A DNA stretch of 64,000 nt from Falsiroseomonas bella (GTDB taxonomy: Bacteria; Pseudomonadota; Alphaproteobacteria; Acetobacterales; Acetobacteraceae): NCBI RefSeq assembly GCF_003173615.1, contig NZ_QGNA01000007.1, positions 124,001 to 188,000 on the forward strand, given 5' to 3'. Below are positions 9,049 through 25,861 of the stretch, piece by piece (position 1 is the first letter of the stretch; the number at the start of each line of letters is the position of its first letter). The notes below the pieces were generated by a model. It searched no databases. It saw only the letters and a list, made by a program, of their open reading frames with translations, and had not been told where the DNA came from. A program made the translations under genes and the position numbers.

Positions 9049-9062
9049 AGTGGCGTCTCCCG

Positions 9063-9572
9063 TCAGTTACTGGTGGTGCGGCTGCGCGCGGCAGCGCTGC
9101 GCTTGCGTCGCTCCTCGTCCTCGCGCTCGTCGATGCGGGACTCACCGGTCAAACGATCGATGTGCCTGCCCTCGCCATGCCGCGCGAAGGCGATGAGCGC
9201 GTTGGTGAGGCGGTCGAGGCAGTCGTTGCGACGGATCGTGGCATGCGTCATAAGGAACGGCTCGACGTAGCCGACGTGGAACGGCAGCCAATCCGCTGGG
9301 TCAGGGATCCAAACTTCGGCGTGGCTGTACTCCTCCGCCATCATATCGACGAAGTAGCCGCCATCCGGCGTGCGACGCGTGATGACCTCCGCCGCGGGCC
9401 AAGCAACGCCATTCACCGCAGTGTGCGAGGTGCGCTGACCGAGCACGAGGTCGAGGGCTGCGTCGTAGTCTTCCCGCTCGACCTCTGCGGCATGCACTGC
9501 CTCCATCCAAGGTGGGTGGGGCTCGGTGCTGAAGACACCAGCACGGAACACGGTGATGCGCTTGGTGGTCAT
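9063..9572 (-). CDS. Element-encoded protein, paralogue B of a tandem pair
   Basis: This 169-residue protein is clearly related to the gene just upstream. Both start with ITV(F/Y)RAG-F--EP-PPW, carry a middle segment W-PD--DWL-F followed by PFL--HA, and end with IA-ARHGEG-H-D--TG. Overall identity looks low, so the duplication is old. The start overlaps the upstream stop (ATGA), indicating coupled translation. No function is recognised; conserved Trp, Asp and His residues suggest a folded, perhaps virion- or DNA-associated, domain. Confidence 0.65.
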   Translation of the reverse strand: MTTKRITVFRAGVFSTEPHPPWMEAVHAAEVEREDYDAALDLVLGQRTSHTAVNGVAWPAAEVITRRTPDGGYFVDMMAEEYSHAEVWIPDPADWLPFHVGYVEPFLMTHATIRRNDCLDRLTNALIAFARHGEGRHIDRLTGESRIDEREDEERRKRSAAARSRTTSN

Positions 9573-10072
9573 GCTGGCCTCCCGCGTCCGGTAGTCTGGT
9601 GCTGATCGCGCAGGGCGGGGTTCCAGCGCGGGTGCGTGTCGAACTCCGATGTGCCGGTGGTGGGGTCGACGTGGTCACCCTCGCCGTGGCGCGCCCGCGC
9701 GATGAGCACGTCACCTACGCGCTGCTGCCGGTGGGCGAGTGCGACCGCCGCATGGCCCTGGAGAAAGGGCAGCACGAACGCGATGTAGAAGCTGAGCCAG
9801 TCGCGCTGGTCCGGGACCAGGACGGCCGCCACAGGCTGATAGAGGCACTCGAACTCGGCGTAGTGCCCGCCGTCGGGCAGGGTCCACCAGAGGACCGATG
9901 CCTCGCGGATGCTGCCGGCGTGGAGCGCGATGCGGTTGCCCTCGCAGTCGAGTTCCGCGGAGATTGCTTCCGCCCAGTTGAGATCGGATGGCTGCGCGTA
10001 GTCGCGCGCAGCAATGCGCCAGGGCGGATCGGGCTCCTCGGCGAAGGAGCCGGCGCGATAGACGGTGATCAT
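9569..10072 (-). CDS. Element-encoded protein, paralogue A of a tandem pair
   Basis: A 167-residue protein with the same motif series as its downstream paralogue: ITVYRAGSFAEEPDPPW at the N terminus, VPDQRDWLSFYIAFVLPFLQGHA in the middle, and IARARHGEGDHVDPTTG near the end. The ribosome site AGGGAGAG stands before the ATG. It is the first of the two in a leftward operon that follows the helicase by 46 bases. I do not recognise the family. Confidence 0.65.
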   Translation of the reverse strand: MITVYRAGSFAEEPDPPWRIAARDYAQPSDLNWAEAISAELDCEGNRIALHAGSIREASVLWWTLPDGGHYAEFECLYQPVAAVLVPDQRDWLSFYIAFVLPFLQGHAAVALAHRQQRVGDVLIARARHGEGDHVDPTTGTSEFDTHPRWNPALRDQHQTTGRGRPA

Positions 10073-10118
10073 GGTCTCTCCCTATGGATGGTCGGTGCGC
10101 CGCCGCGGGCAGCGCGGG

Positions 10119-12386
10119 TCAGGCCGCGGCCGGGTGTGGCTTGGCGGCGTCGAGACGGGCCGACAGCGCCGCGAGGCGTGCGCGGTCGGTGGCAAGGCGC
10201 TGGTGGATGGCGGCGTCGAGCCGCGCGCTGAGTGCGGTTAGGCGGGCACGCGCGTCGGCGACGGGATCAGCCGCCGCAGGCGGCGAAGGCTCGCTGCCGA
10301 GCATCTCGAAATGCGCCAGCGCCCCCAGCCGTGCTTCGAGCCAGACGCGAGGATCTGGAATCAGCGCGAGGTCGAACCGCGCCTGCCGGTCCTTCTGGCC
10401 GGGCCCGGCGGGCCGGTAGCTCACAATCGAGGAGGAGTGTGAGGATCTGCTATTATGGAGATCCCTATAATAGCAGTTTCTCACACTCCTCCCGTCCTGG
10501 CGGGCCGCGTCATGGCTGGGCCAGAGCTCCGGGAAGCAGCGCGCCATGTCGGCTGCGTTCTCGAGCTCCACGCCGGCGGCGGCCATGATGTCGTGCCGGC
10601 TCGGCTGGACCTCCTCCCAGGCCAGCACCTCATGCACGGCGACGGGCAGGACGACATCGGTCAGCAGGTCGATCTCGAGCGGCCTCTCGGGGGTGCGGTT
10701 GACCCCGCGGCCGCGCCCGACGGCCTGCACCAGCTCGCCCTCGCAGATCGTCCAGCGCAGGGCCTCCGCGGTCGGGTCCGCATGTTCCTCGCCGGTGGTG
10801 GCGTGCACGCCCCCATCTGCCAGCGCGATGCGCCGCTCCACGCGGCCATACCACCACGCCACGTCGCCCCGGCTGGTCAGGGGTGGGCGGTTGGTGAGGG
10901 CGGCGGCGAGCGCCTCGACCGTCAGGGGCGCTGGCAGCGTGCGGCCGAGCACCATCATGCCCGCGACCTCGCGCCACCGGTCGAGGCCGCTCAGCGCGTT
11001 GAAGTGCACCGCCTCGGCGTTGGCCGGCAGGCCGAGCGCCCGGAGCGCATCGACCGCCGCCTTCTGGCCGATCACCAGCAGGTCCTTGCCCGATCGCGCC
11101 CGGCCGCGCAGCGTCCGCGCCCGCAGGGCGATCAGCGCGGCCATCTCGCGCCGCCGCAGCAGGGCGGCGGACTGGTCCCGGGCCGGCGCGCCCGCATCGG
11201 GGGCGAGGGCCTTCGCGCTGGTTGGCGCCCCCAGCACCTGGCGAACCCGGACATGCGGCTCGGTCGCCCGCACCGGCTCGGCGACGGTGATGTCCGGCAG
11301 GAAGGGCGTGACCAGCTCGGGCCGCAGCGTCGCGTCGAGGTGCAGCACGGGCCCGCCGGCGCCCCACGACTTCCGCAGCCCAGCCCGCCAGGCCAGGCGC
11401 AGCGACCGCACCGTGCCGTTCTCGGTCATCACGTCGCACAGCACCGCGCCGGCCACGTCGTGGTCGTTCTCCAGCGCTTCCGCGATCAGCATCCACATCG
11501 CGGCGGTGCGGCCGGGTGGCGCCCAGGGCTCGCCCTCCTTCGGCAGCACGGCGGCGATGCGGCGCCGGCGCTCGGCTGGGTCCATCCCGGGATAGAGGCC
11601 GGGATTGCGGAGCCGCCGGTGCTCGTGGCCGGAGGCGTCCCGGCAGATCTGCGGGGTGAGTCCGGCGGCCCGCAGGGCGGCGACCGAGAGCGGCCCGTTC
11701 GGCGCTGTGGCGAGGACCTTCCAGAGCTTCTCACGCGCGGCGTGGAGGTCGGCGGTAGCCTCCCAGTTCTCCTTGTTGCGCGCCGTCCAGCACAGCACCG
11801 TGCCGAGATGCGGGCGAAGCCCGTCCAGCGTCAGCAGCGCCTTGCCGTCGGTGCCGCGGAGCCCGGCCGCCCAGAAGCCCTCGTCCAGCACTAGCAAGCC
11901 GACGGCGCCAAGCTCCTTCGGGGCCATGTGGAACAGCGTGTCGTGGGCGGTGATGACGACGTCGGCACCGCGCAGCGGCGGCTTCTGCGCCTGGTAGCCG
12001 CACTGGTGGTAGAGGGGGCAGATCTTCGTCACGCCGTCGCGGGTCACCTTGCAGCTGGTGGTCTCGACGACGCGCTCGACTTCGATGGCGTCGAACGGCG
12101 CGGAGGGATCGAGGCACATCAGCCGGTCCGGCTCGCCCGGCCGCGGGTCCGGGGCGCTGCGGCCCTTCCAGAGCGCTGCCTCCACGCCGAGCGCCGCGAA
12201 GGCGTCGCGCTGCTCCGCAGCGAGGTCGTGCCGCGGCACGCCGACCACCACCGTCTTGCCCCGCAACGCACCGCTACGCAGCAGGCCGGCCAGACCGCGT
12301 TGCATGGCGGTGGTCTTGCCGAGGCCCACGGCCACCGGCAGGGCGAGACGTGGCGGACGGGGCGCGGCGTTGAAGTCTAGGAGCAT
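10119..12386 (-). CDS. Large P-loop helicase-like protein of the replication module
   Basis: This 755-residue protein has a Walker A-like motif near the N terminus (PVAVGLGKTTAMQRG, about 17-31) and a Walker B/DE box (LLVLDEGFW, about 184-192), so it is probably a superfamily-2-type helicase. A cysteine cluster lies at CPLYHQCGY, and the C-terminal helicase part ends with LVQAVGRGRGVNRT, which resembles helicase motif VI (Q--GRGR). It overlaps the primase stop by ten bases. After about residue 625 the frame crosses the palindromic element (reading CYYRDLHNSRSSHSS), and the tail has two copies of RARL(T/A)ALSARLDAA. The natural protein may have ended before the element. Confidence 0.7.
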   Translation of the reverse strand: MLLDFNAAPRPPRLALPVAVGLGKTTAMQRGLAGLLRSGALRGKTVVVGVPRHDLAAEQRDAFAALGVEAALWKGRSAPDPRPGEPDRLMCLDPSAPFDAIEVERVVETTSCKVTRDGVTKICPLYHQCGYQAQKPPLRGADVVITAHDTLFHMAPKELGAVGLLVLDEGFWAAGLRGTDGKALLTLDGLRPHLGTVLCWTARNKENWEATADLHAAREKLWKVLATAPNGPLSVAALRAAGLTPQICRDASGHEHRRLRNPGLYPGMDPAERRRRIAAVLPKEGEPWAPPGRTAAMWMLIAEALENDHDVAGAVLCDVMTENGTVRSLRLAWRAGLRKSWGAGGPVLHLDATLRPELVTPFLPDITVAEPVRATEPHVRVRQVLGAPTSAKALAPDAGAPARDQSAALLRRREMAALIALRARTLRGRARSGKDLLVIGQKAAVDALRALGLPANAEAVHFNALSGLDRWREVAGMMVLGRTLPAPLTVEALAAALTNRPPLTSRGDVAWWYGRVERRIALADGGVHATTGEEHADPTAEALRWTICEGELVQAVGRGRGVNRTPERPLEIDLLTDVVLPVAVHEVLAWEEVQPSRHDIMAAAGVELENAADMARCFPELWPSHDAARQDGRSVRNCYYRDLHNSRSSHSSSIVSYRPAGPGQKDRQARFDLALIPDPRVWLEARLGALAHFEMLGSEPSPPAAADPVADARARLTALSARLDAAIHQRLATDRARLAALSARLDAAKPHPAAA
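10431..10492. repeat. 62-bp palindromic element, copy 2 (inside the helicase frame)
   Basis: Outer arms GGAGGAGTGTGAG (10431-10443) and CTCACACTCCTCC (10480-10492) and inner arms GCTATTAT (10449-10456) and ATAATAGC (10467-10474). Length and layout equal copy 1, with compensating changes in the loop region. In the minus-strand frame it encodes CYYRDLHNSRSSHSS, close to what copy 1 encodes (CYYESPSNSRSSHSS), so the element is readable without stops and is tolerated in a coding gene. Confidence 0.85.
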
Positions 12387-13597: not shown

Positions 13598-14444
13598 GCG
13601 GGAATCGTCCTGTCTGTCGGATGGGGCGTGAGCTGCGCCGCGTTGATTGCCGGCTGCAGTTATTCACATGGTCAAAGTAGGTCGATGATGATTACCGCGC
13701 AAGAGTATTTTGGCTTGTGTAGTGGAGAACGGATTTCAGTATTATCGATCGGCAAGCAAGAGCAACCGGGCGCGAAATACGGATCTGATGACTGTCGGAG
13801 AATTTCATCATCTCTACTGCTCGGGGGTTTGCGATGCGAACCGCTCGCCAAGCTCCCAAGCCCGAGCGGGGTACCGGCGTGGAACACGTCACAGGTGGCC
13901 CCGGTAATCAGCCGGAGGGGGACGATCGTCTGCGTTCCAGCGAGGCGCGTGAGAAGAACGGCGGGCTCGATCGGTAAATGAGGGGCAGAGGATTGCGTGT
14001 CGGAGGGACCTCCATGGTCGCCATCATCCCGTCTGAACCCTGCCGCGGCAGCGCGTGTGCCGTGCCCGAGTCGCGGCCGCGATCACCAGCGGCGGCCCGT
14101 GCTGCGGCCACGCTGCGCTTCGTTTGTTTTCGCTCGGCTACGCGCGTGACAAGAACGCACTCCCCGCGGCGCGCTGCGCTCGGCATGGTGCGCGCGATGA
14201 ACACAACAGCACCCCTCGCGAGCGCTCTCCTGTTGCGTTCCACGCCATGCGGATTTCGCAGCGACATTGGTGCATGGCGCCGGACTGCGCGGAGCTGGCA
14301 TGTGACGCGCATGCGCCAGACGATCCAGACCATCGACGCCGCGGTCTCCGGCTCGGCAATCATTGGCAGCGTGGCCGGCGATGCTGTCGCTGTGATGATC
14401 AGAAACGGCCGATGCCGTGGGACGGATTCCGGGGAGGCTGGGTA
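13598..14444. other. Divergent control region between replication and recombinase blocks
   Basis: No convincing gene. Bases 13650-13850 are clearly AT-richer than the rest of the window, with runs such as AGAGTATTTTGG and GGATTTCAGTATTATCG, so this is the best candidate for divergent promoters or an element origin. Bases 13980-14444 hold GC-rich frames only; one plus frame from an ATG at 14247 is Cys-rich (CMAPDCAELACDAH) and would run into the small gene at 14445, so a longer product cannot be excluded. Confidence 0.45.
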
Positions 14445-14669
14445 ATGCTAAGTATGGACAGCATCCCGCCACAGCCGCCGCTGCGCATTCCGCCGCGCTT
14501 CTGGGAGGCCCGCGGCATCTTCGCCCCTGGCGAGCTGCGGCTGCGCAGCCGCGCTGCCGCGGATCTCGCGCGCGCGGCCGAGCAGGCCCGAGGGTCGGGA
14601 GACGTTCGCCTACACTCCACTGCGCCGCAGCGCCTGCATGCGACCCCCAGGAGAAAGGGAGTCGCATGA
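14445..14669 (+). CDS. Small basic protein coupled to DUF2924
   Basis: A 74-residue frame (MLSMDSIPPQPPLRIPPRFW and onward) with the ribosome site GGGGAGG seven bases upstream. Its TGA overlaps the DUF2924 ATG (ATGA), the same coupling used by the next genes, which is the main reason to accept it. Pro-rich at the start, Arg/Ala-rich later. No family recognised. Confidence 0.45.
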   Translation: MLSMDSIPPQPPLRIPPRFWEARGIFAPGELRLRSRAAADLARAAEQARGSGDVRLHSTAPQRLHATPRRKGVA

Positions 14670-15181
14670 CCCGACGATCGACCGCCAACGCGAAGCAGGA
14701 GAGCGCAGCGCCGCCGGCGCCAGCGCCGACCAAGATCCCGCCCGCGCAGGTCCTGCCGCGCCTCGCGGCGCTGCAGACCGCGACGGCCGCGGAGCTGCGG
14801 GAGCAGTGGCGCATGCTGTTCGGCAAGGAGCCGCCGCCCTTCAACCGACCCTACCTGGTGAGCCGGCTCAGTTACCGTGTGCAAGAGCTCGCATACGGCG
14901 GGTTGCGGCCCGAGACGCGGGCACGGCTCGAGGCGCTCGGGGAACAGCTCGACGGCGGGAACGTGGTGCTGCGGCGGATCCGCGCCGACAGCCGACCGCT
15001 GCCGGGCACGCGGCTGGTGCGCGAGTACGACGGCGTGCAGCACGTGGTGACGGTCCGCGCCGACGACTTCGAGTACGAGGGGCGGCCGTACCGATCCCTC
15101 TCCGCCATCGCGCGGCACATCACCGGGACGCGCTGGAACGGTTGGACCTTCTTCGGGCTGAAGGGGAGGCCTGGGGCATGA
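14666..15181 (+). CDS. DUF2924 domain protein, recombinase partner
   Basis: A 171-residue protein. The DUF2924 core is visible: AAELREQWRMLFGKEPPPFNR, LVSRLSYRVQELAYGGL, GTRLVREYDGVQHVVTV and YRSLSAIARHITGTRWNGWTFFGL. The last part resembles a DNA-binding or AP2-like small domain. DUF2924 genes usually lie directly before a large serine recombinase, as here with an ATGA overlap, so a role as recombination accessory factor is a reasonable inference. AGGAGAAAGGGAG precedes the start. The longer open frame to the left lacks homology. Confidence 0.85.
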   Translation: MTRRSTANAKQESAAPPAPAPTKIPPAQVLPRLAALQTATAAELREQWRMLFGKEPPPFNRPYLVSRLSYRVQELAYGGLRPETRARLEALGEQLDGGNVVLRRIRADSRPLPGTRLVREYDGVQHVVTVRADDFEYEGRPYRSLSAIARHITGTRWNGWTFFGLKGRPGA

Positions 15182-16536
15182 GCCGCCGCAAGCTGACGGA
15201 CGGGGCCATGCCCGCGTCGGTAAAGAAGCTCCGCTGCGCGGTCTACACGCGCAAGTCTACCGACGAGGGCTTGGACAAGGAATTCAATTCGCTCGAGGCG
15301 CAGCGCGAGGCCTGTGAATCCTATATCGCGTCTCAGCGCGCCGAAGGGTGGGTGCTCGTCCGCGACCGCTACGATGATGGCGGGTTCAGTGGCGGCACCC
15401 TCGACCGCCCCGCGCTGAAGCGCCTGCTGGCCGACATCGAGCAAGGCCTGATCGATGTTGTTGTCTTGTATAAGATCGATAGGCTCAGCCGCTCGCTGAT
15501 GGACTTCGCGAAGCTGGTGGAGACGTTCGAGGCGCACGGCGTCACCTTCACGAGTGTGACTCAGTCATTCTCCACGACCACGTCGATGGGACGGCTGACG
15601 CTGAACATCCTGCTCAGCTTTGCGCAGTATGAGCGCGAGATTATCGGCGAGCGCATCCGGGACAAGGTGGCAGCGTCAAAGGCGCGCGGCATGTGGATGG
15701 GCGGGAAGGTGCCGCTCGGATACGACGTGGCGGATCGGAGGCTGGTGGTGAACGAAGCCGAGGCGGCGCGGGTGCGACGCGTGTTCGAGCTCTTCGTCGA
15801 GACCGGCTCTGGCGTCGAGACGGTGCGCCGCCTGCAGGCGGAGGGCATCACCGCCAAGTCGGGTCGGCCGCTCGACAAGGGTGACGTCTACAAGATCCTG
15901 AACCTGAGGACTTACATCGGGGAGGTCACGCACAAGGGGAACGTCTACCGCGGCGAGCACGAGGCGGTCGTGTTGCGCGATCTCTGGGACCGGACGCACA
16001 CCATCCTGCAGGTCAGCCCGCGGAGCCGAGCGGCGCAGAATCGGCAGCACGCGCCGGCGCTGCTGAAGGGGCTGATCTTCGGGGTGGACGGACGGGCGCT
16101 GTCACCTACGCACTGCGTGAAGAATGGCAGGCTCTACCGCTACTACGTCGCCCAACGGGTGTTGAAGGGCGACGCCGCGGCTGCCGGGGACGACGGCATC
16201 GTGCGCCGGGTGTCGGCGGCGGAGATCGAGGCGGCGGTCGTGGACCAGGTCCGCTCGCTGCTGCGGCAGCCGGAGGTCGTCGTCGGCACTTGGCTCGCCG
16301 CGCGGGCCGAGGCTCCCGACCTGAAGGAGGGCGAAGTCCGAGACGCGCTGTCTCGGCTCGACCCGCTATGGGGCGAGCTCTTCCCGGCGGAGCAGGCGCG
16401 GATCGTCCGGGCGCTGGTGGAGCGGGTGGTGGTGGGGCCGGCCGGAGCCGACATCCGCCTCCGCGTGGAGGGTCTGGCCGGCCTCGTCCGAGACCTCACG
16501 GCCGTCGCGCCCGAAGCTCTGAAGGTGGCGGCATGA
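15178..16536 (+). CDS. Large serine recombinase (site-specific integrase)
   Basis: This 452-residue enzyme has the resolvase catalytic domain at residues 18-160 (CAVYTRKSTDEG with nucleophile S27; VVLYKIDRLSRSLMDF; SFAQYEREIIGERIRDK). A recombinase domain follows (about 170-290: KVPLGYDV, YKILNLRTYIGEVTHKG), then a zinc-ribbon-like part (LKGLIFGVDGRALSPTHCVKNG, only one cysteine seen). It would integrate and excise the element. The start was placed at 15178, where it overlaps the DUF2924 stop; the open frame begins earlier but without homology. No att site could be identified. Confidence 0.93.
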   Translation: MSRRKLTDGAMPASVKKLRCAVYTRKSTDEGLDKEFNSLEAQREACESYIASQRAEGWVLVRDRYDDGGFSGGTLDRPALKRLLADIEQGLIDVVVLYKIDRLSRSLMDFAKLVETFEAHGVTFTSVTQSFSTTTSMGRLTLNILLSFAQYEREIIGERIRDKVAASKARGMWMGGKVPLGYDVADRRLVVNEAEAARVRRVFELFVETGSGVETVRRLQAEGITAKSGRPLDKGDVYKILNLRTYIGEVTHKGNVYRGEHEAVVLRDLWDRTHTILQVSPRSRAAQNRQHAPALLKGLIFGVDGRALSPTHCVKNGRLYRYYVAQRVLKGDAAAAGDDGIVRRVSAAEIEAAVVDQVRSLLRQPEVVVGTWLAARAEAPDLKEGEVRDALSRLDPLWGELFPAEQARIVRALVERVVVGPAGADIRLRVEGLAGLVRDLTAVAPEALKVAA

Positions 16537-16994
16537 CGGTGGCGACCAGCATCACGGTCCGGGTGCCACTGACCATCCGGCGGCGGCCGGGGCGGAAGAC
16601 GGTGGTGACGCCGGTGCAGGACGGCGGCGAGGCGGCACTCCCGACGCGGGCCGATCCGGCCTCGGTGAAGGCTCTGGCCAGGGCGTTCCGGTACCAGAAG
16701 CTGCTGGACGAAGGACGCTACGGCTCGATCAGCGAAATGGCGGCAGCGGAGTGAATCGATCGGGGCTATCTCGGTCAGCTCCTACAGCTAACGCTGCTCG
16801 CACCGGACATTATTGAGGCAGCCCTGGACGGGCGGCAGGTCGCGAGCCTCGGGCTGGCGACGCTTATGGATCCGATTCGGGCTGAGTGGGACAGACAACG
16901 CGCAGCGTTTGCTGCGCGTGATCGCCAAATTCCGTCCACCACTGGGTCTTCAGGTTCGAACCACGGCGGGCAGGTGGCAGTCCGTGCCCAGTGA
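16533..16994 (+). pseudogene. Recombinase-associated helix-turn-helix protein, interrupted by a nonsense codon
   Basis: The open part (16533-16754, 73 residues) starts in an ATGA overlap with the recombinase and stops at TGA (16752-16754) right after SISEMAAAE. The same frame continues without a shift as IDRGYLGQLLQLTLLAPDII and onward, then DGRQVASLGLATLMDPI, to a stop at 16992-16994. That continuation is what members of this family carry (AAAE-R-I-N/D-R-SY---LL-LTLLAPDI-EA-LDGRQ). Replacing TGA by CGA restores the expected arginine, so a single C-to-T change probably inactivated the gene. It belongs to the recombinase operon. Confidence 0.75.
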
Positions 16995-17167
16995 ATGCAT
17001 TCAGCTGTCGGCCGAGACGTTAGACCCCTTCCCAGATTACTTGCTGCCGATGGGAGAGGAGACGGCCAACATTGTCCACCCGGTGATGTCGGGCGACACC
17101 GCGCTGCTTTCGCTTGAACCTCGGAGTCAGGCGTAAGAGGATAGGGATTCGAATCGAGGTGGACGAC

Positions 17168-18157
17168 GTGACTAAGGCCAATACCATCGGCATACTGCGC
17201 GGGCTGCAGGCGGGAGAGCCCCAGGAGGTCTCGAAGACGCGCGCGGAAGCACGCTTCAAGAGCCTCAAGGGCCAGCAGAAGGCAGCGTTCAAGCTCCTAG
17301 ACCCCGAAACCCTGGCCAAGGTCAAGTACGGTTACCGGGGCGACGTCCCCTGGATCATCAGCAACGATGACGCCCTTGCGGGCGTGAGCCGGCTTCCCGA
17401 CAACTTCGTCGATTGCGTGGTGACGAGCCCCCCCTACTACTGGCAGCGCGACTATGGCGTCGACGGACAGACGGGCCAGGAAGACACCATTGAGGACTAT
17501 GTGGAGGCGCTTGCCGCCGTGTTCCGCCAGGTACTCAGGGTTCTGAAGCCGACAGGCACCGCCTTCGTTGTGCTGGCGGACACATATTATTCGGGTAAGG
17601 GACAGCCGCGCGGCGGCGACCCGAAACAGGTCTGGCGGAGTGTCGCGCGACAGAAGTACAGGGCGGTCGACAGACCTGGCTTCGGCTTGCCGAAAAAGTC
17701 CCTCCTAGGCGTTCCGTGGAGAGTGGCGCTCGCGCTCCAGGCCGACGGGTGGGTCCTCCGATCGTCGGTCATTTGGCGGAAGCCCAAGCCCCTGGCCGAG
17801 CCGAGCGTTCGGGACCGCCCTTGGAACACCACAGAAACGGTTTTCATCCTAACCAAGTCCGGCAAGTACCACTTCAACCGGGACGGCCTGGACGGGCAGG
17901 AAGACGTCTGGGACATCCCGGCCCCGAATGCCATGCGCCGCTACCGCCATGCCGCTCCCTTTCCGGAGGCCTTGGTCAGCCGGTGTCTCGCGGTGGGGTG
18001 CCCGAAGAAGGGGGTCGTCCTCGATCCCTACGTCGGATCCGGTACCACGCTTGCGGTTGCCGCCAGTCGCGGCCTCCCGTCCATCGGGATTGAGCTCAGT
18101 TCGCATTACGTGACCCTCGCCCGTCAGCGCCTAATTACGAAGTTCAGCCGTCGGTGA
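17168..18157 (+). CDS. DNA methyltransferase, N4-cytosine/N6-adenine type (beta-class order)
   Basis: A 329-residue enzyme. The catalytic motif IV TSPPYYWQRDYG (about 86-97) precedes the S-adenosylmethionine motif I DPYVGSGTT (about 286-294), the permuted beta-class order; SPPY is typical of N4-cytosine or N6-adenine enzymes. The middle (about 130-270) should hold the target-recognition part. The GTG at 17168 follows GAGGTGG by five bases; a TTG at 17114 would add 18 residues but has no ribosome site. It leads the seven-gene operon and probably protects self DNA from the nucleases encoded downstream. Confidence 0.9.
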   Translation: MTKANTIGILRGLQAGEPQEVSKTRAEARFKSLKGQQKAAFKLLDPETLAKVKYGYRGDVPWIISNDDALAGVSRLPDNFVDCVVTSPPYYWQRDYGVDGQTGQEDTIEDYVEALAAVFRQVLRVLKPTGTAFVVLADTYYSGKGQPRGGDPKQVWRSVARQKYRAVDRPGFGLPKKSLLGVPWRVALALQADGWVLRSSVIWRKPKPLAEPSVRDRPWNTTETVFILTKSGKYHFNRDGLDGQEDVWDIPAPNAMRRYRHAAPFPEALVSRCLAVGCPKKGVVLDPYVGSGTTLAVAASRGLPSIGIELSSHYVTLARQRLITKFSRR

Positions 18158-18167
18158 AGGCGCCTCC

Positions 18168-18755
18168 ATGGACCTCAAGGAGCGCCTGAACGAGATCCAC
18201 CAGCGGATCCTCGACGGCAGCCGGACGGCCTCTCTCGATCTGTTCAGAGAGGCTCAGGGTCCGATTCAGGCGGTTCTCCGGCGCAAGTTCCGAGGCCTCT
18301 CCGAGGAGGAGAGTTACGACCTCGCGACCGACGCCATTCTCGTCTACGCGACCGATCCCCACCGCTGCGACGCAGCCAAGGGCTCACTGTGGTCCTTCCT
18401 CTGTCGCATCGCGATGCGGGATGCAATCGACCACATCCGCAACTCTCGAAGACGGGGCGAACTGCTGAAAGAGGTCGAAGGCGATGTCGAATTCTGGACC
18501 TCCCGCGCGAAGGACGTGTTCAGGGGGGAAGATGCGATAGACGCGCGGCAGATCATGAAGCTCTACGGGCACCGGCTTGCCACGAACGAGGCTGAGGCCA
18601 GGCTCCTCACTCTCCTGCTCCAGGAGGAGAAGAAGACCGAGGCCTTTGCGCACGCCCTTGGGCTCGACCCGCAGGCGCCCAACGTCGAGCGGATTGTGAA
18701 GCAGGCCAAGGATCGCATGCTCCTCCGGTTGAAGAGGTTGCGCGATGAGCTCTGA
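18168..18755 (+). CDS. Sigma-70-like (ECF-type) RNA polymerase sigma factor
   Basis: A 195-residue protein. Region 2 is visible at about residues 20-100: FREAQGPIQAVLRRKF, SYDLATDAILVYATDP and GSLWSFLCRIAMRDAIDHIR, followed by a basic turn (NSRRRGELL). Region 4 is less clear but LLTLLLQEEKKTEAFAHALG could be its helix-turn-helix. It starts 10 bases after the methyltransferase stop and overlaps the next gene by 11 bases. A sigma factor inside a defence-like operon suggests transcriptional control of the operon; with the protease two genes on, a proteolytic switch is plausible. Confidence 0.75.
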   Translation: MDLKERLNEIHQRILDGSRTASLDLFREAQGPIQAVLRRKFRGLSEEESYDLATDAILVYATDPHRCDAAKGSLWSFLCRIAMRDAIDHIRNSRRRGELLKEVEGDVEFWTSRAKDVFRGEDAIDARQIMKLYGHRLATNEAEARLLTLLLQEEKKTEAFAHALGLDPQAPNVERIVKQAKDRMLLRLKRLRDEL

Positions 18756-19113
18756 AGAACCGGCGTACGACTTCCTGGCCCGCGCTGCCCGACGGGCCGC
18801 CCGTGGGCCCGCGCCCTTGGTCGCCGGGCTCTTCGAGGCCTGGCGCAAGGCCTTCCCCGACGAGGATCCCGCCGCAGCGCTTGCCTGTAGCGGGCGAGCG
18901 CTTACTGAACTCGCCCTGTGCCGACGCCCGCGCGACGAGCACTGGGTCGGGGACGTTGCGGAGATCGCCGGCGCGCTCGGCATCGACGCCGACCGGCTGA
19001 TCTCATTGCTGCGCGCTGCCGAAGCGGTAGAGCGGTTCGGCAGCGCCCACCCGGCCGACGCCTCGCAGGCCGGGCGCCTGCTCGCGGCTCGTGACCACGA
19101 GGCGGACGAGTGA
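18745..19113 (+). CDS. Small helical protein between sigma factor and ImmA/IrrE protease
   Basis: A 122-residue Ala-rich, helix-predicted protein overlapping the sigma gene by 11 bases and the protease start by one base (TGATG). Recognisable stretches are ALTELALCRRPRDEHWVGDV and EIAGALGIDADRLISLLRAAE. I know of no named domain. Its position between a sigma factor and an ImmA/IrrE protease makes an anti-sigma or protease-substrate role the leading hypothesis, by analogy with ImmR/ImmA pairs, but nothing in the sequence proves it. Confidence 0.6.
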   Translation: MSSEEPAYDFLARAARRAARGPAPLVAGLFEAWRKAFPDEDPAAALACSGRALTELALCRRPRDEHWVGDVAEIAGALGIDADRLISLLRAAEAVERFGSAHPADASQAGRLLAARDHEADE

Positions 19114-19820
19114 TGGCGCGCTACCGGAGCGAGGACGTCGCCAACGCCTTTTGGGAGGGGGCCGGAGGTCGCGCGCGGTTTGGGAGCCCGGCCGACGTCG
19201 AGCGTGCGGCAGCACGGGTCTTACCGGTGGCTGTCCACCGCGTCGCCAGCCTCCACACCGGCGCGGTCGTCCGCTTCCTCTGCCGTGTGGGCGCGGATCC
19301 CTGGCTAGACGGTGCGCCACGTCCACTGCGGGGCTGTCTGATCGCCGATGCGGGCAAGGCTCTCATTTTAGTGGACCGGGACGACCCGGTGGACGAGCAG
19401 CGCATGACCATCGCCCATGAGGTCGCCCACCTGCTTCTCCATTACCTCAAGCCACGCGAGGAGGCCGTGACTGCGTTCGGCCCCCGCATCCTCGCTGTCC
19501 TCGACCGAACTCGTCCAGCGACCCCAGGAGAAAAGCTGTCCGCCGCCCTGCGAAATGTCCCAATCGAGCCGTTCCGGCACGCTATGGACCGCGGCCATAC
19601 CGGGCACGCGGGTGTAATCAGCGCCATGGAGGACGAAGCCGACGACCTCGCGGTCGAGCTCTTGGCCCCCTGGCGCGAGCTCCGGGCTATGCGTGGCGGC
19701 GGCCCCGGGCCGCTCCGCGAACGCTTCGGCCTGCCGGCACCCGTCGCGGCCCGCCTTGCTGGCGTGATCGGGCGGCCTCGGACCTCGCCCGGCGTCATCG
19801 GCCTTTTCCGGCAAAAATAG
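19113..19820 (+). CDS. ImmA/IrrE-family zinc metallopeptidase
   Basis: This 235-residue protein has the zinc motif HEVAHLLLH (H102, E103, H106) and the downstream acidic helix EDEADDLAVELLAP (about 173-186) that supplies the third ligand in ImmA/IrrE proteases. Known members cut regulators: ImmA cleaves the ICEBs1 repressor ImmR, and IrrE cleaves DdrO after DNA damage. It overlaps the previous stop by one base (TGATG); a GTG one codon earlier is an alternative start. Here its natural target would be a product of the same operon. Confidence 0.88.
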   Translation: MARYRSEDVANAFWEGAGGRARFGSPADVERAAARVLPVAVHRVASLHTGAVVRFLCRVGADPWLDGAPRPLRGCLIADAGKALILVDRDDPVDEQRMTIAHEVAHLLLHYLKPREEAVTAFGPRILAVLDRTRPATPGEKLSAALRNVPIEPFRHAMDRGHTGHAGVISAMEDEADDLAVELLAPWRELRAMRGGGPGPLRERFGLPAPVAARLAGVIGRPRTSPGVIGLFRQK

Positions 19821-19876
19821 CTGTCGAACTTCCTGTGGCTGAGCCGAAGGACAGAGCGGACGAACCGGAGGTCACA

Positions 19877-21205
19877 GTGGCGCTCGACGAGATCAACCAT
19901 TTGCCGCAGGGCGATCACAGCGACGGCCTAGGATCGGACGCCGGGGAATCGGCCAGCTTCGTCGCCGACCGCCGCTATGTCGACGCCGACGAGGCCGCCG
20001 ACGACATGGATGGTGTCGAGGTCGCCAGCTCGCTCGAAGCCGAGTTTCGGAAGGCGCTAAACCTCGACACCTGGACCTCCGGTGAGCGCATGGATCTGCT
20101 TGCCGCCCGCCTGGAGCGGGAAGTCGAGTTGGCGGCCCAGTTCGAGGACGACATGGCGCCGCGCGTGCTGAAGGCTTTGGAGGACGGGCTCCCGAGCGCG
20201 CCCGACGCGTCTCGCGAGAGCGGCATCTACACGCTCAGCCCGGAGGTCATCACCCGCGCGATCCGCAACGTGCTGTTCAACGGGCTTGTCGAGGCCTGCG
20301 ACGGTACCCGAGTCACCGTCAGCACCCTGCCGGTGACCGTCGTCCAGATCGGCATCTGCCTCACCTCATACCAGGGCACTGGCGACGGCGGCTCGATCGG
20401 GCACCGGCTCTACCGCCATGACATCATGCGGCGGAACGGCAACGCCGAGGACGAGGTGCTGGAGTTCCTCTCCCGCCGTGCCCGGCGCAAGAACCGCGAG
20501 GTGCCTCATCGTGAGTTCGGCGACGATGGGCAGCCGATAAACATCAGCGACATGCTGTGCCGCGCCCTCATGATCTACGCGGAGCGCGCGATGCTGGCCG
20601 ACCGCTCCGAGCGTCCGTGGCGCCTGGGCCATGGCGGACCGATGCCGCACGAGCTCATCGTCGGGTCGGGCCGCAACGAGATGGCGTTTGCAAGCCTGGA
20701 GATGCTCCGCCGCCTGCTCCTTGAGCACCGGAGGTTCATCTTCGTCCCGAGCGAGATCAGCGACGAGGCGGTGGTGACCATCGCGAACGCGCTCCACCCT
20801 CTCCAATACGCGGTGCTGCGGAATACCAAGGACATCATCGAGGGCTACATCACGGGCAGCAGCTATGAGCGCCCGCACTACAAGAGGTCGGGCCTTTATC
20901 AGGCTGTCCGCAGCTTCCAGGAGGACGTCGGCTCCAAGGTGCTGCTCGGGGTGTACCGCGCCTCCGCCCTCTGCCCGGGACGAGTCTTTTACGCGCATGA
21001 GGACCACGTGCACGAAGCCGCGCAGATCGTGATGGCCGACAGCGCCTTGCAGGAGGCGCGCGGCTTTCCGAACCTCATCGACATCGCTGACCGCACCTGC
21101 AAGGGAATGTTCGAGCCCGGCGGCCTCTCGGCCCAGGTCCACGCCGCTCTGGCGCGCAGCGGTTCCCCGTTCCGCTTTCTCGGCGAACGCAACACCCGGG
21201 CGTGA
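19877..21205 (+). CDS. NurA-like nuclease candidate, partner of HerA
   Basis: A 442-residue protein with no strong match by eye. Overall arrangement recalls NurA: an N-terminal helical and acidic segment, a DG-type motif region (TSYQGTGDGGSIGHRLYRHD), a GGPMPHELIVGSG segment where NurA has its second DGP-like motif, and a C-terminal DSALQEARGFPNLIDIADRT resembling the end of NurA. Catalytic acids cannot be assigned confidently. GTG at 19877 follows GGAGG by five bases; the earlier GTG at 19835 lacks a ribosome site. It overlaps or closely precedes the HerA gene, as NurA genes do. Confidence 0.45.
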   Translation: MALDEINHLPQGDHSDGLGSDAGESASFVADRRYVDADEAADDMDGVEVASSLEAEFRKALNLDTWTSGERMDLLAARLEREVELAAQFEDDMAPRVLKALEDGLPSAPDASRESGIYTLSPEVITRAIRNVLFNGLVEACDGTRVTVSTLPVTVVQIGICLTSYQGTGDGGSIGHRLYRHDIMRRNGNAEDEVLEFLSRRARRKNREVPHREFGDDGQPINISDMLCRALMIYAERAMLADRSERPWRLGHGGPMPHELIVGSGRNEMAFASLEMLRRLLLEHRRFIFVPSEISDEAVVTIANALHPLQYAVLRNTKDIIEGYITGSSYERPHYKRSGLYQAVRSFQEDVGSKVLLGVYRASALCPGRVFYAHEDHVHEAAQIVMADSALQEARGFPNLIDIADRTCKGMFEPGGLSAQVHAALARSGSPFRFLGERNTRA

Positions 21206-21231
21206 CGCCCGTCACGGCACAGGAGGGGTCC

Positions 21232-23085
21232 TTGAACGCAGCCGAAAAGATCGCCATGGCCGCCGACCAGCTCGAGCGCACGGGCAACGACAACGGCGGG
21301 GCCTACCAGGAGCCGGAGGCGTACAGGGGCTCCTGCGCCCGCACGATGTTCGACCGCCCCGGCTCTGAAGACGGCACCGTCACCGTGCTCGTCCCTGAGC
21401 ACCAGATCGGCAACGTCAGCCGCGAGGCTTACGTCCGCATTCCAAGCATCCACCCCCGGTCCAATGAAATCGAGGCGGAGTACCTGGGCGTCGTCGCCTC
21501 GGGGCCTTTCGCCGAGCCCGACGCGCTTGGCGCGACCGCGCCGACCCTCGTTGTCGCGGCGGCCCACGGGGCAGTGCTGACGCCGAAGTACCACAGCATC
21601 GCACAGGTGGAGGTGTTCGGCGAGCGGGTCGATGGCTTGGTGATCCCACCCGTCCGCCGCCCTTGCCCCAACAGCCCCGTGTTTCTCCTTGACGGCGACG
21701 AGGTCAAGGCGGTGCTCGGGCTCGACATCCCGCCAGGGGACATGCCAGTGCGCCTAGGCCTGATGGACGGCGTGAGCTCGATCGCCGTGGAGGTGCCGGC
21801 GGCGAAGAAGTCCGTTCTTTTCAAACATCTCGCCATCCTCGGCACGACCGGCGGCGGCAAGAGCACCACGGTGTCTGGCAGCATCATGAACTTCGCCGAG
21901 GCGGGGAACGCAGTCGTCGTCTTCGACATCGAGGGCGAGTACACGACGATGGACCGTCCGACCGATAACCCGCAGATGCTCGCGGCGCTGAGAAAACGCA
22001 AGCTGCAGGCGCGGGGGGCGGCGAATACGCGCTTGTTCTACCTGTCCGGCCGCGCGCCCGCCAATCCCGAACACCCAAGCAAGCGCGACTTCAAGATCGC
22101 CTTCGACGACTTATCACCTCACGTGCTCACCGAGGTGCTCGACCTGAGCGAGCCGCAGGAACGTCGCCTTCTGGATGCCTACGAGATCTGCCGCATCACC
22201 ATGGAGCGCGAGAAGATCTTTCCGGCGGACGATGAGGAGCAGCGACAGGCCCTCGAAATCGACGAGCTCCAAAGCGGCTGGCCGCGCATGACAATCGAAA
22301 TGATGCTCGACGTTGTTGGCGCAGCCATCGAGATGATCGAGGGCGACATCGACCGGTACAAGGGACGCACGAACGGCTTCCGCGGTCACGAGACCACGCT
22401 TAAGCAAACGCTCAACGCGCGCAAGATCGAGAAGGATTCCCGGTCCTGGAAGGCTATCGCTAAGCGGCTTTGGCGCATGAAGAAGGCCGGTGTGTTCGCG
22501 GAAACACAAGAAGAGCGCATTGACGTCGACGAGATGCTCGTCCCCGGCCAGATCTCTATCGTCGACCTCAGCGACATGGACGCGCCATACCTCCGCAACC
22601 TCGTGATCGCGCAGATGCTGAGGGCTCTGCAGATGCGCCAGGACGAGCTCTATAAGGAGCGTGAGGACGCGCTGCGCGAGAACAGGGAGCCGAAGCCCTT
22701 GACTCGAGTGAACATCTTCATCGAGGAGGCCCACGAGTTTCTGTCGGCGCAGCGCATCAAGCAGATGCCGAATCTGTTCGACCAGGTTGCCCGCATCGCC
22801 CGCCGCGGCCGCAAGCGTTACCTCGGACTCATATTCGTGACGCAGCTTCCGAGCCACCTTCCCGACGAGGTGCTCGGCCTCGTCAACAACTGGATCCTGC
22901 ACAAGCTCACCGACACGGGCGTGGTGAACCGCCTGCGCAAGGTCGTCCCCGGCGTGAACGAGGCAACCTGGAACTCGCTGCCGAACCTGGCCCCGGGCCA
23001 GGCCCTATGCTCCTTCACACACATTGCTCGGCCCGTCATGACCACGATCGACCCGTCGCCTTGCCAGCTCCGGATGGTCGACTGA
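21232..23085 (+). CDS. HerA-type FtsK-superfamily DNA translocase/ATPase
   Basis: A 617-residue ATPase. The N-terminal beta-barrel (HAS-barrel-like, about 30-180) is followed by Walker A LGTTGGGKST (about 203-212), VVFDIEGEYTTMD, Walker B VNIFIEEAHEFL and a sensor segment LGLIFVTQLPSHLP. HerA forms a hexameric ring that translocates DNA for a nuclease partner such as NurA. TTG at 21232 has AGGAGG five bases upstream (21221-21226); a GTG at 21202 would instead overlap the preceding stop. In bacteria HerA genes beside methyltransferases and nucleases are usual in defence islands. Confidence 0.9.
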   Translation: MNAAEKIAMAADQLERTGNDNGGAYQEPEAYRGSCARTMFDRPGSEDGTVTVLVPEHQIGNVSREAYVRIPSIHPRSNEIEAEYLGVVASGPFAEPDALGATAPTLVVAAAHGAVLTPKYHSIAQVEVFGERVDGLVIPPVRRPCPNSPVFLLDGDEVKAVLGLDIPPGDMPVRLGLMDGVSSIAVEVPAAKKSVLFKHLAILGTTGGGKSTTVSGSIMNFAEAGNAVVVFDIEGEYTTMDRPTDNPQMLAALRKRKLQARGAANTRLFYLSGRAPANPEHPSKRDFKIAFDDLSPHVLTEVLDLSEPQERRLLDAYEICRITMEREKIFPADDEEQRQALEIDELQSGWPRMTIEMMLDVVGAAIEMIEGDIDRYKGRTNGFRGHETTLKQTLNARKIEKDSRSWKAIAKRLWRMKKAGVFAETQEERIDVDEMLVPGQISIVDLSDMDAPYLRNLVIAQMLRALQMRQDELYKEREDALRENREPKPLTRVNIFIEEAHEFLSAQRIKQMPNLFDQVARIARRGRKRYLGLIFVTQLPSHLPDEVLGLVNNWILHKLTDTGVVNRLRKVVPGVNEATWNSLPNLAPGQALCSFTHIARPVMTTIDPSPCQLRMVD

Positions 23086-23167
23086 CGGCAGCCACGCACC
23101 GAGTTCATCATGCCTGGGCTATCCAGCGCGGCCCGTTGAGGTCGGCACTGGTGACAGCGGTCAGCAG

Positions 23168-25465
23168 ATGGGCGCTACAGGCACGAGGTGCGGGGTGAGC
23201 GAACGGCGAACGATTGGGGCGCAACCGCGAGGAGCCCGCCAAGGTGGGCTGCGGGTGGTGGAGCATGAGTTCCTTGCTATGCGACCGCAGGAGCGGGCGG
23301 AGTTCATCCGCGCCACCGGGCGCCGGGCCGAGCAGGAGTACCAGGCCCTTGTCGCCCGGCTCGACGAGACCCTGTCCGGCTTCGAGCCCTTCCACGTCCT
23401 GAGCCTGGTCGGCCTCGTCGTAGTGGTCGGCGCGATGTCCGGCAGCCAAGGCATCAAGGGCATCGGCCAGGCGCACGCGGAACTCCTCCAGGCGCTCATC
23501 CTGCGCCGCGATCCGGCCAGCTTCACGGGCGTGATCGGCACGCCGCAGCAGGTCGCAGAGGCCCTGGATCTCATTGGGCCGCTCGCGGACGCCCTAATGA
23601 TGCGGGGGTGGGCGAACTACGAGTACACGGGCGACGAGCGCGCCCAGGCGCGCGCCGTCACCGAGACGATGCGCATGCACACCTGGGCGATCCGAGGGGA
23701 GTTCTACGGCGAGCAGATCCTGCGCATCTTCCTGCCGATCGTCCGGCCCCTCGACCCGCACTTCCGGAGCCTCCACGGGCTTCGCGCTAGCGCGGTCTAT
23801 CCGCTGCTTCGCGCCCTGGCCAGGCAATGCGCAGATCGGCTTGAGGCCCACTTGGCGCGGGTCCGCCGCTTCCTCTTCCAGCCCAGCTTCGAGGCGATGG
23901 CAGAGGCGTACAACCGGGCCTTCCCGCACACCGAGCCGATAGACGTGGGCTGGGCGCGCGAGCGCTTCGGGGAAAACCTCGCCGCCTTCAAGTTCGGGCT
24001 TGTCTCCCATTCTGACCTATTCGTGGCGGACGCCGTCAGCATCAGTCTCGATGACGTGGCAGCCGCCGCCGCCCAGGCCGGGGCCGATGTCACGGTGGAG
24101 GCGGCCGTCGCGCTCGTTGACAAGCTCGCAATGTCGCTAGGCGACCTAGCAGACGTCCCCGTGGACAGGCTGTTCCTGGCGAACCCCGTCTGGTCGCGCC
24201 CGTTCGTGAGGGCGGAGGGCCGCTGGCTTCTGCCGATGGCCTCGACCCTAACGAGCTTCGCTCCCGAGATCATCCGCTACCTGTCGCAGGACGACTCGGA
24301 TGCCAGCAAGGCGCTGGCCGAGGCCCGCGCCTCGATGCTGGAGCAGACAGCGGCCGACATCCTGCGGGTTGCCCTCCCGGGGGCAGGGGTCTGGCCCGGC
24401 GTGGCTTGGACGGATCCGTCCGATGCTCGCCGCTACGAGAACGATGTCGTCCTGCTGCTCGACGGCTGGCTCCTGCTTGTCGAGGCCAAGTCGGGCCGCT
24501 TCGCCGAGAGCGCCCGCCGCGGGGGGCTGGAGCGCCTGCGGGCCGAACTCGGGAAGCTCGTCGTTGATGCGTCCATCCAGTCCGCGCGGCTTGCCGCATT
24601 CATCGGGGACGCGGCAGGGCCCGTGACCCTGCAGGCGAAGGGTGGCAGGCGCCTACACGTCGATCCGGCGCGCATCGAGGGCGTCATCCGCCTGAACGTG
24701 GTTCTCGAGGGCATCGGCCACCTTACCGCGAGCGCCCCGACCCTGCGCGCCGCGGGCCTGCTCCCTGCCGACATCTCGCTGGCTCCCACCATGACCATAG
24801 GCATGCTGGATGTGGTCGCCCGGTGCCTCGCTGATCCGACGGCTATCCTCCACTACCTGTCCCGGCGAGCGATTTTCGAGGAGCGGGGCGACTATCTCGC
24901 AGACGAGTTGGACCTCCTGGCCTTCTACGTGGCTCACGGATTCTCGGACACGAGCGACCGGCCGCCCGGTGCACCGCTCATGATCTACGGCATCTCCAAC
25001 GACCTTGATGTAGCCTTGAGCGCCGGGACGCGTGCTGCCAGCGAGCAACCGAAGGCAGTAACGCCCTTCGTCCAGCGCGTCCTTGACGCCCTGACCCGGA
25101 AGCGGCCGCCGGGCTGGATTGGCGCCGCCCTGCTGCTCCGCGATCTCTCCCTCGAGGCCCAGGACGAGCTGGATCGCAATGTCCGGGCCGTCGTCGCGTC
25201 GGCGCGCACGTCGGGGCACGCAGTCGCGGTCCACCGGCATTCCACGATCGGGGCGTCGCGCCCCTACGTGTTGGTGGCCACGCGCCCTGGCGACGTCCCG
25301 CGGGCCGTGGCCGATGAAGCCGAGGCCAGGTTGCGGGAGCACGGCCCGTACTCCGACGAGCCGCTGTTGCTGGTCCACGTCACGTTGCCTATGCGCCCGG
25401 CTAGCATCCGGGCGTTTGCGGCGCGGCCGGGCAACCTTGCCGGTGCGCTCGGCCGATCGGATTGA
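23168..25465 (+). CDS. Large protein with a PD-(D/E)XK-type nuclease motif, defence-associated
   Basis: A 765-residue protein. Residues 1-390 are helical and unrecognised (a hydrophobic stretch FHVLSLVGLVVVVGAM lies near 75). At 420-445 the motif ENDVVLLLDGWLLLVEAKSG gives D426, E439 and K441, the order of a PD-(D/E)XK or NERD-like nuclease, preceded by a helix with Glu (SMLEQTAADILRV). The last 300 residues are unknown. It follows HerA by 82 bases and ends the operon. Starts at 23198 (GTG) and 23279 (ATG) are possible; conservation-like composition begins near the latter. Confidence 0.65.
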   Translation: MGATGTRCGVSERRTIGAQPRGARQGGLRVVEHEFLAMRPQERAEFIRATGRRAEQEYQALVARLDETLSGFEPFHVLSLVGLVVVVGAMSGSQGIKGIGQAHAELLQALILRRDPASFTGVIGTPQQVAEALDLIGPLADALMMRGWANYEYTGDERAQARAVTETMRMHTWAIRGEFYGEQILRIFLPIVRPLDPHFRSLHGLRASAVYPLLRALARQCADRLEAHLARVRRFLFQPSFEAMAEAYNRAFPHTEPIDVGWARERFGENLAAFKFGLVSHSDLFVADAVSISLDDVAAAAAQAGADVTVEAAVALVDKLAMSLGDLADVPVDRLFLANPVWSRPFVRAEGRWLLPMASTLTSFAPEIIRYLSQDDSDASKALAEARASMLEQTAADILRVALPGAGVWPGVAWTDPSDARRYENDVVLLLDGWLLLVEAKSGRFAESARRGGLERLRAELGKLVVDASIQSARLAAFIGDAAGPVTLQAKGGRRLHVDPARIEGVIRLNVVLEGIGHLTASAPTLRAAGLLPADISLAPTMTIGMLDVVARCLADPTAILHYLSRRAIFEERGDYLADELDLLAFYVAHGFSDTSDRPPGAPLMIYGISNDLDVALSAGTRAASEQPKAVTPFVQRVLDALTRKRPPGWIGAALLLRDLSLEAQDELDRNVRAVVASARTSGHAVAVHRHSTIGASRPYVLVATRPGDVPRAVADEAEARLREHGPYSDEPLLLVHVTLPMRPASIRAFAARPGNLAGALGRSD

Positions 25466-25861
25466 ACATGTGCCTGCCGGCTTGGGTGCGAATCGGGATT
25501 TTCTACTCTCTGTTGCTTTGGTCAGGCGATGGAAATGCTGAATCCGAGCAGGGGAGCCGCACCGAAGATGGCCTGAAAACAAGGCGTTAAACCTTGTTGG
25601 AGAAACCGGCCAACCCTCAAGGTTCGGAGAGTCTCCGGCATTTCGGAGAGAAAAGCCGTCCTCGTTCCGGCCTTGCACCGTCAAGGTCGCGGCCGAAAAC
25701 CGCAGGAAACCTGTGCCTCAGCGCGGTGTCCCGGTCAGGAGAGACAGGTTGTGATGAGACCGACTGGAGCAGCGGTGGGAACCGGGGACTGAAATTCTCT
25801 GGGGAGGAAAAAGCGCGTCGGCTTGGTCGGGATAGCGAACGTGACGGCTCGCCTGCGAAGT

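Follow-up and report, generated by a model that had tools for sequence, protein, structure and literature searches.

Among the closest described relatives of the locus presented here are the HerA-NurA complexes of archaea and Deinococcus, for which end resection together with Mre11-Rad50 (SbcCD) has been proposed, and it is still debated whether HerA-NurA serves DNA repair or antiviral defence. One source discusses the pair as end-resection machinery while its abstract argues for an antiviral role (PMC12977600), and DUF4297-HerA degrades DNA in defence and is described, in the parts of its report drawn on here, as a two-gene system (PMC11291478). On the regulatory side, single-stranded DNA activates the proteases PprI and CapP, leading to cleavage of the repressors DdrO and CapH, and CapH+CapP, CapW and CapK+CapS are presented in the sections cited as damage-responsive regulators of immune operons (PMC10904395, PMC13373217). 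Here, we describe a five-gene cassette from a 64,000-nucleotide stretch of the Falsiroseomonas bella genome (contig NZ_QGNA01000007.1, positions 124,001 to 188,000; hereafter the window), in which an extracytoplasmic function (ECF)-like sigma factor, a small protein of weak helix-turn-helix (HTH) character and an ImmA/IrrE/CapP-like protease precede a NurA-fold protein and a HerA translocase.

A single genome scan with an alignment of HerA yielded at least 42 related loci (L046-L087), whose HerA proteins are 39-73% identical to that of the window; generic HerA loci (L088-L125, at most 33% identity to the window HerA) were set aside and gave a control of 37 loci. Cassette genes were detected by iterated profiles on six-frame open reading frames (ORFs), from which the proteins were then picked, the start codons of the relatives being chosen by script and the neighbouring gene calls being approximate. 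Across the related loci, the order sigma factor, small HTH-like protein, ImmA, NurA, HerA is conserved on one strand, with NurA and HerA present in 42/42, ImmA in 38/42, the small gene in 37/42 and the sigma factor in 36/42. Four of the six loci without a sigma factor (L059, L070, L083 and L086) are cut by contig ends. Variations on the design are few: a single ORF encodes both the small protein and the protease in L081, L068 has a second small-protein-like ORF ahead of the sigma factor, and HerA is split across two frames in L079 and L086. The L081 fusion has an HxxxCxxC pattern at its N-terminus that suggested an anti-sigma zinc finger, which, having no Pfam support, is not claimed. The evolutionary distances among the five proteins correlate (r 0.56-0.82, 33 of 43 loci), and for each pair none of 1000 permutations gave a value as high. 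Since the gene order recurs across phyla, chance association is unlikely, and it is well supported that the five genes constitute one functional unit. The nearest relative, in Bradyrhizobium (L046), has a HerA 73% identical to that of the window, and DNA homology covers window positions 17348-19681 and 20016-23085, ending at the HerA stop codon; L046 has the methyltransferase and lacks the 765-aa protein, both of which accompany the cassette in the window.

Indeed, the window operon is longer than the cassette, and comprises seven ORFs on the plus strand with gaps of +10, -11, -4, +14, -4 and +82 bp in order (Table 1). A sequence-only reading of this DNA had placed these seven co-directional genes correctly, and the identities it gave to the methyltransferase, sigma factor, ImmA protease and HerA are confirmed by the Pfam matches tabulated, as is its small helical protein by an all-helical model (predicted local distance difference test, pLDDT, 78.9). 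Its description of the genes as mostly overlapping or within 30 bases is true of five gaps and not of the last. It had further proposed that all seven genes form one restriction-like system, in which the methyltransferase would mark self and HerA, NurA and the 765-aa nuclease would destroy unmarked DNA. The methyltransferase does lie directly upstream in the window and, on the same strand, in 8/42 relatives (the other seven within reach have it downstream or on the opposite strand), and within 6 kb of the cassette, the distance used for all neighbour counts, it is found in 15/42 related loci as against 1/37 generic loci, a comparison that is biased, the profile having been derived from the very loci under test. 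The remaining 27/42 loci, some of them cut by contig ends, have no such methyltransferase within 6 kb, so that it is a frequent, non-obligatory partner and the scheme of methylating self is not general. Moreover, the 765-aa protein was found in 0/42 related loci in the flanking DNA searched (up to 10 kb per side), and its relatives, present in three plasmid records and in four of 385 genomes of the class including its own, have no HerA or NurA match nearby in the stretches fetched. Its PD-(D/E)xK motif, which would suit a restriction enzyme, is in part upheld: E424, D426 and K441 occur in 8/8 aligned sequences (itself included), whereas E439 of the D...ExK pattern put forward earlier occurs in 5/8, with Q in three. 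Thus, of the co-occurrence expected by the earlier reading, the recurrence of sigma, ImmA, NurA and HerA in distant genomes was borne out and that of the 765-aa protein was not; the latter looks like a separate cargo, outside the cassette. A seven-gene restriction-modification system with obligatory methyltransferase and nuclease is rejected, and we regard the restriction-like scheme as improbable.

Table 1. Features of the window discussed in the text, by position (E-values follow the profile names)
Feature	Position	Strand	Basis or remark
Left module of probable mobile element	14406-16774	+	DUF2924 gene, serine recombinase, short ORF
DUF2924 gene	14666-15181	+	Pfam DUF2924 7.6e-49
Serine recombinase	15178-16536	+	Pfam Resolvase 9.3e-40
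Short ORF after recombinase	16533-16754	+	Counterpart in L148 (2467-2877) longer
DNA methyltransferase (N6/N4 type)	17168-18157	+	PF01555 (N6_N4_Mtase) 1.8e-38; PADLOC MTase_II 2e-73
ECF-like sigma factor, core	18168-18755	+	Sigma70_r2 1.2e-5; profile match to SigK, RpoE
Small helical protein, weak HTH character, conserved C-terminal AARD-type tail, core	18745-19113	+	HTH_31; model
ImmA/IrrE/CapP-like zinc metalloprotease, core	19110-19820	+	Peptidase_M78 8.8e-8; PADLOC capP 1.6e-8
NurA-fold protein (predicted nuclease), 456 aa, core	19835-21205	+	AlphaFold2 fold
HerA-type DNA translocase, core	21202-23085	+	DUF87 6.6e-18; HerA_C 4.6e-11
765-aa protein with PD-(D/E)xK motif, separate cargo	23168-25465	+	Motif; 0/42 related loci
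Possible right end, or dispersed repeat	25589-25789	.	67-73% matches of 178-280 columns in L009, L148, L151, L152

Two of the starts in Table 1 deserve comment. The methyltransferase begins with GTG, its reading frame being open from a TTG at 17114, and the true start of the NurA-like protein may be near 20006, which would widen the gap after ImmA to 185 bp, because the DNA homology of L046 resumes at 20016 and residues 8-58 of the structural model have a pLDDT below 50.

The last two genes would constitute the effector. Like the small and the 765-aa proteins, the NurA-like protein has no usable Pfam domain; PADLOC, NCBIfam and PHROGs likewise place it in no family, and none of the 42 members matches a NurA model of Pfam or PADLOC at E<=0.1. 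Its AlphaFold2 model, built from 42 aligned sequences, has a pLDDT of 81.7, and all 10 PDB matches of this model at E<=0.001 are NurA proteins (best 2ygk, 2.2e-6), including the NurA of the Thermococcus kodakarensis HerA-NurA complex. The earlier NurA-like label therefore stands by fold and not by sequence, and we consider the 456-aa protein to be a probable distant relative of NurA, assigned by fold alone. In the NurA alignment (A2; 42 of 43 proteins, the cut L059 protein being left out), E250 and D402 are present in 42/42 and D156, the probable counterpart of T. kodakarensis D49, in 32/42. The same archaeal complex provides the best PDB sequence match of HerA (9x1l, 4.4e-17), and the Walker A motif is present in 42/43 HerA proteins. 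DNA degradation by the cassette is thus predicted from fold and family.

The first three genes, on the other hand, look like a switch. The sigma-factor profile (A3, 33 of 37 proteins) matches ECF sigma factors in the PDB (SigK 1.3e-4, RpoE 3.6e-4), and the protease profile (A4, 31 of 39) finds CapP as its best PDB match (7t5t, 5.2e-6), with IrrE next. HExxH is present in 38/39 ImmA proteins, the remaining one being cut by a contig end, and together with E174 it is invariant in 31/31 aligned. The tail of the small protein is conserved (A5, 36 of 38 proteins; AA 36/36, R 32/36, D 30/36). Further, an ECF-like promoter footprint, GTCGAACTC-N13-CGAA, lies upstream of the sigma factor in 9/9 myxobacterial-type loci, in DNA that is otherwise mostly variable. 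In 20 genomes of that family the footprint is found beside the cassette in 8/9 carriers (nine matches, one carrier having two), and its 15 matches elsewhere do not exceed the 18 of a reversed control pattern. From the protein families, the L081 fusion and the myxobacterial promoter, we infer that the first three genes form a protease-triggered sigma switch. One of the nine loci, L069, bears the name Comamonas sp. KCTC 72670; as its HerA falls within Myxococcus in the tree, the genome is probably mislabelled.

A second element of the myxobacterial upstream DNA is a palindrome, TACC-N8-GGTA, located 71-72 bp before the footprint in 8/9 loci. A stricter form of it stands by the cassette in 5/9 carriers, also occurs elsewhere, and is present in 4/11 non-carriers. 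Near the L051 cassette, and again near further copies of the palindrome, there are LuxR-type regulators, FeeM-like synthases and haem-oxygenase-like genes, and the palindrome may therefore be a LuxR-type site. Several copies of the LuxR-type regulator occur per myxobacterial genome (L051, L126, L127, L129, L133), in part together with genes of the FeeM-like synthase and haem-oxygenase-like kinds, and the palindrome accompanies these copies except in L051; the set is possibly a signalling system that reaches the cassette too. In L082 (689-3435), SbcD/SbcC-like genes, a palindrome and the cassette stand together in one stretch.

It is instructive to compare the cassette with the systems introduced above. 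As in the HerA-NurA complexes, NurA-fold and HerA genes are adjacent; however, the cassette NurA is unrecognised by sequence, three regulatory genes share the predicted transcript, and SbcCD-like genes lie within 6 kb of only two of the 42 loci. The resemblance to CapH+CapP, the DNA-damage controller of the cyclic oligonucleotide-based antiphage signalling system (CBASS) and other immune operons, lies in a protease closest to CapP and an adjacent small HTH-like protein, whereas the cassette starts with a sigma factor, no profile identifies its small protein with CapH, and no CBASS effector or cyclase model is among the PADLOC matches listed for the seven proteins. PprI/IrrE and DdrO of the Deinococcus damage response share the protease family and the proposed relief of repression by proteolysis, but the cassette pair shares a single operon with a sigma factor and the effector genes. 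DUF4297-HerA and SIR2-HerA likewise pair HerA with a partner enzyme; they are rejected as identifications, the partner here having the NurA fold and no DUF4297 or SIR2 domain being among the Pfam and PADLOC matches listed for the seven proteins. The methylation-associated defence system MADS (PADLOC mad1-mad8) also comes to mind, given a methyltransferase and a HerA match to the mad8 model (1.6e-21); it too is rejected, mad8 being the only mad model among the matches listed (for the methyltransferase, the best 25 of 66 families). Overall, the gene set matches no PADLOC system, in agreement with the sequence-only reading that it belongs to no named one, and no description of the combination was found in the literature searched, which covers few subscription journals.

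Taken together, we favour the view, to which we give about an even chance, that the cassette is an accessory operon triggered by DNA damage, in which a protease relieves repression and a sigma factor turns on DNA degradation by HerA-NurA, with defence a likelier purpose than repair. In such a scheme, the HTH-like protein would repress the operon through contact with DNA or with the sigma factor. Single-stranded or broken DNA, arising from phage, plasmid or damage, would be the trigger upon which the ImmA/CapP-like protease cleaves the HTH-like protein, possibly at the conserved AARD tail. The freed sigma factor would then transcribe the cassette from its own promoter, and HerA hexamers would pump DNA ends into NurA to be degraded, the outcome being clearance of the invading DNA or death of the infected cell. 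A more specific version, held only tentatively and somewhat short of even, is that of a cross-phylum immune operon with a private sigma factor, where a CapP-like protease destroys the HTH-like inhibitor, acting on the sigma factor or on its promoter, once single-stranded DNA is present, and the HerA-NurA shredder is expressed only during invasion.

A use in defence is favoured because the distribution is patchy and part of the loci have defence-type neighbours. Within one family the cassette occurs in 24/59 genomes, of which three hold it twice in full and two show an in-frame TGA. CRISPR-Cas genes lie within 6 kb in 7/42 related loci as against 0/37 generic ones, with Pfam support in five, L047 carries a CRISPR-like array of 71 repeat copies, and L058 a TIR/SEFIR-NACHT gene. 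These same observations, along with the methyltransferase neighbours and the restriction-modification cargo of the sister modules described below, speak against a DNA-damage-inducible repair module in which the regulatory trio would turn on HerA-NurA to resect chromosome ends with Mre11-Rad50 (SbcCD). That module is, in our estimate, a serious if rather doubtful contender. The published discussion of HerA-NurA in end resection (PMC12977600) is in its favour, as are the SbcCD-like genes near two cassettes. On patchiness and surroundings, defence is the likelier of the two uses.

Several observations weigh against the favoured view. With L066 and L127 as the sole sources of queries, SbcD/SbcC-like genes were found within 6 kb in 2/42 related loci and 0/37 generic ones, directly after HerA in L066 and on the opposite strand in L082, and in one Myxococcus xanthus genome a copy of the cassette-promoter palindrome (L127, 2067-2119) stands just upstream of SbcD/SbcC-like genes; the same 16-mer is present in two related genomes. 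Seven phyla are represented in the tree of HerA, drawn from 40 of 43 rows, which needs 9 label changes where the minimum is 6 and the shuffled mean 22.2. The cassette is thus spread over phyla and mostly clustered by phylum, and frequent or recent cross-phylum transfer, which the tree does not support, was dropped as an argument. The clustered phyla and the second SbcCD neighbour have lowered our confidence in the favoured view and in its more specific version, and raised the repair alternative. In addition, the same neighbouring genes recur beside the myxobacterial loci, and 35/42 loci have no match to the Cas queries, which derive from the test loci themselves. As regards the switch, L065 and L081 are real exceptions without a detectable sigma factor; HTH_31 is matched by 10/36 small proteins at E<=0.1 (best 2.4e-4), a weak indication of HTH character, and the model of the small protein resembles no PDB fold at the E<=0.001 threshold. 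The ECF-like footprint is absent from the Planctomycetota, KSB1/UASB270/Bacteroidota and Thermogemmatispora sets, none is common to the window and L046, and promoter and palindrome searches beyond the myxobacterial-type loci revealed nothing conserved. As regards the effector, the fold matches have modest template-modelling scores (0.31-0.42 by query length), on account of which the relation to NurA is called distant, and the first-strand D156 is absent in 10/42 (nine myxobacterial-type NurA proteins and L079), which suggests altered metal binding or lost catalysis in the myxobacterial-type clade.

Finally, a search of 72,556 plasmid records with the NurA-like protein came back empty, a further point on the same side, and in 398 genomes of the phylum it matched only its own genome and, weakly, one other sequence (E 0.007). 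The HerA searches gave 81 partial matches in plasmid records, none above 80% of its length, one partial match in phage records and, in the 385 class genomes, its own copy and two partial HerA proteins at 26% identity. Among viral contigs, the HerA alignment (A1) recovered 22 HerA loci at 25-36% identity, and we take the upstream neighbours of those inspected to be SIR2-like proteins. Single-protein scans of these contigs gave six weak and partial matches for HerA and no relative of the 765-aa or the NurA-like protein.

The surroundings of the window copy are those of a probable mobile element; the earlier reading had noted the serine recombinase operon in front as a common setting for defence cargo. 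DNA similarity to the left of the DUF2924 gene extends to about 14406, and the short ORF after the recombinase looks truncated. The same genome holds six DUF2924 and serine-recombinase modules, the other five at 72-79% DNA identity, and the cassette is absent from all five. The sister module L009 carries a ResIII protein, a methyltransferase (type III-like restriction-modification) and, last in the cargo (8918-11146), a paralogue sharing 27% identity with the 765-aa protein; L149 carries HsdM, HsdS and HsdR (type I restriction-modification); and L148 carries VWA, PP2C and kinase-like proteins behind genes that are presumably transposase-like. The genes beside the L150 and L151 modules are of no obvious defence type. 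The 25589-25789 repeat follows the cargo directly in L009 and L148, lies far from the recombinase in L151, occurs in L152 without a recombinase module in its 15 kb, and has no match in L149 or L150. As it could be the right end or a mere dispersed repeat, we delimit the element only tentatively, at about 14.4 to 25.8 kb. The cassette copy and its methyltransferase probably ride in this element together with the independent 765-aa protein. Four of the six related modules stand beside defence-type genes, different each time, and the six (L148, L149, L150, L151, L009 and window 14406-25790) look like a family of cargo-swapping elements.

This setting, and a recombinase near the cassette in L085, would also suit an ImmR/ImmA-type switch for mobile-element induction, in which the HTH/protease pair controls excision and HerA-NurA aids DNA transfer or processing. 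We consider this very improbable: the homology with L046 begins inside the methyltransferase gene, which leaves the recombinase module outside the shared DNA, and the five sister modules have no cassette.

The debate between repair and defence becomes directly testable in a widespread bacterial HerA-NurA operon that has a damage-type switch and lies close to CRISPR-Cas in some loci and to SbcCD in others. If the more specific version above is true, an immune operon under sigma-factor control would join CapW, CapH+CapP and CapK+CapS as a sigma-based member of the regulators that respond to damage, HerA defence would gain a NurA-type branch, and in myxobacteria the cassette may also tie to LuxR-type signalling and SbcCD. 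In its own genome, a single recombinase family is found next to several kinds of defence cargo. Lastly, two planctomycete loci (L061 3578-6808 and L053 2939-6142) encode a protein of some 1070 aa immediately ahead of the cassette, that of L061 having AAA_16 and HerA-like domains.

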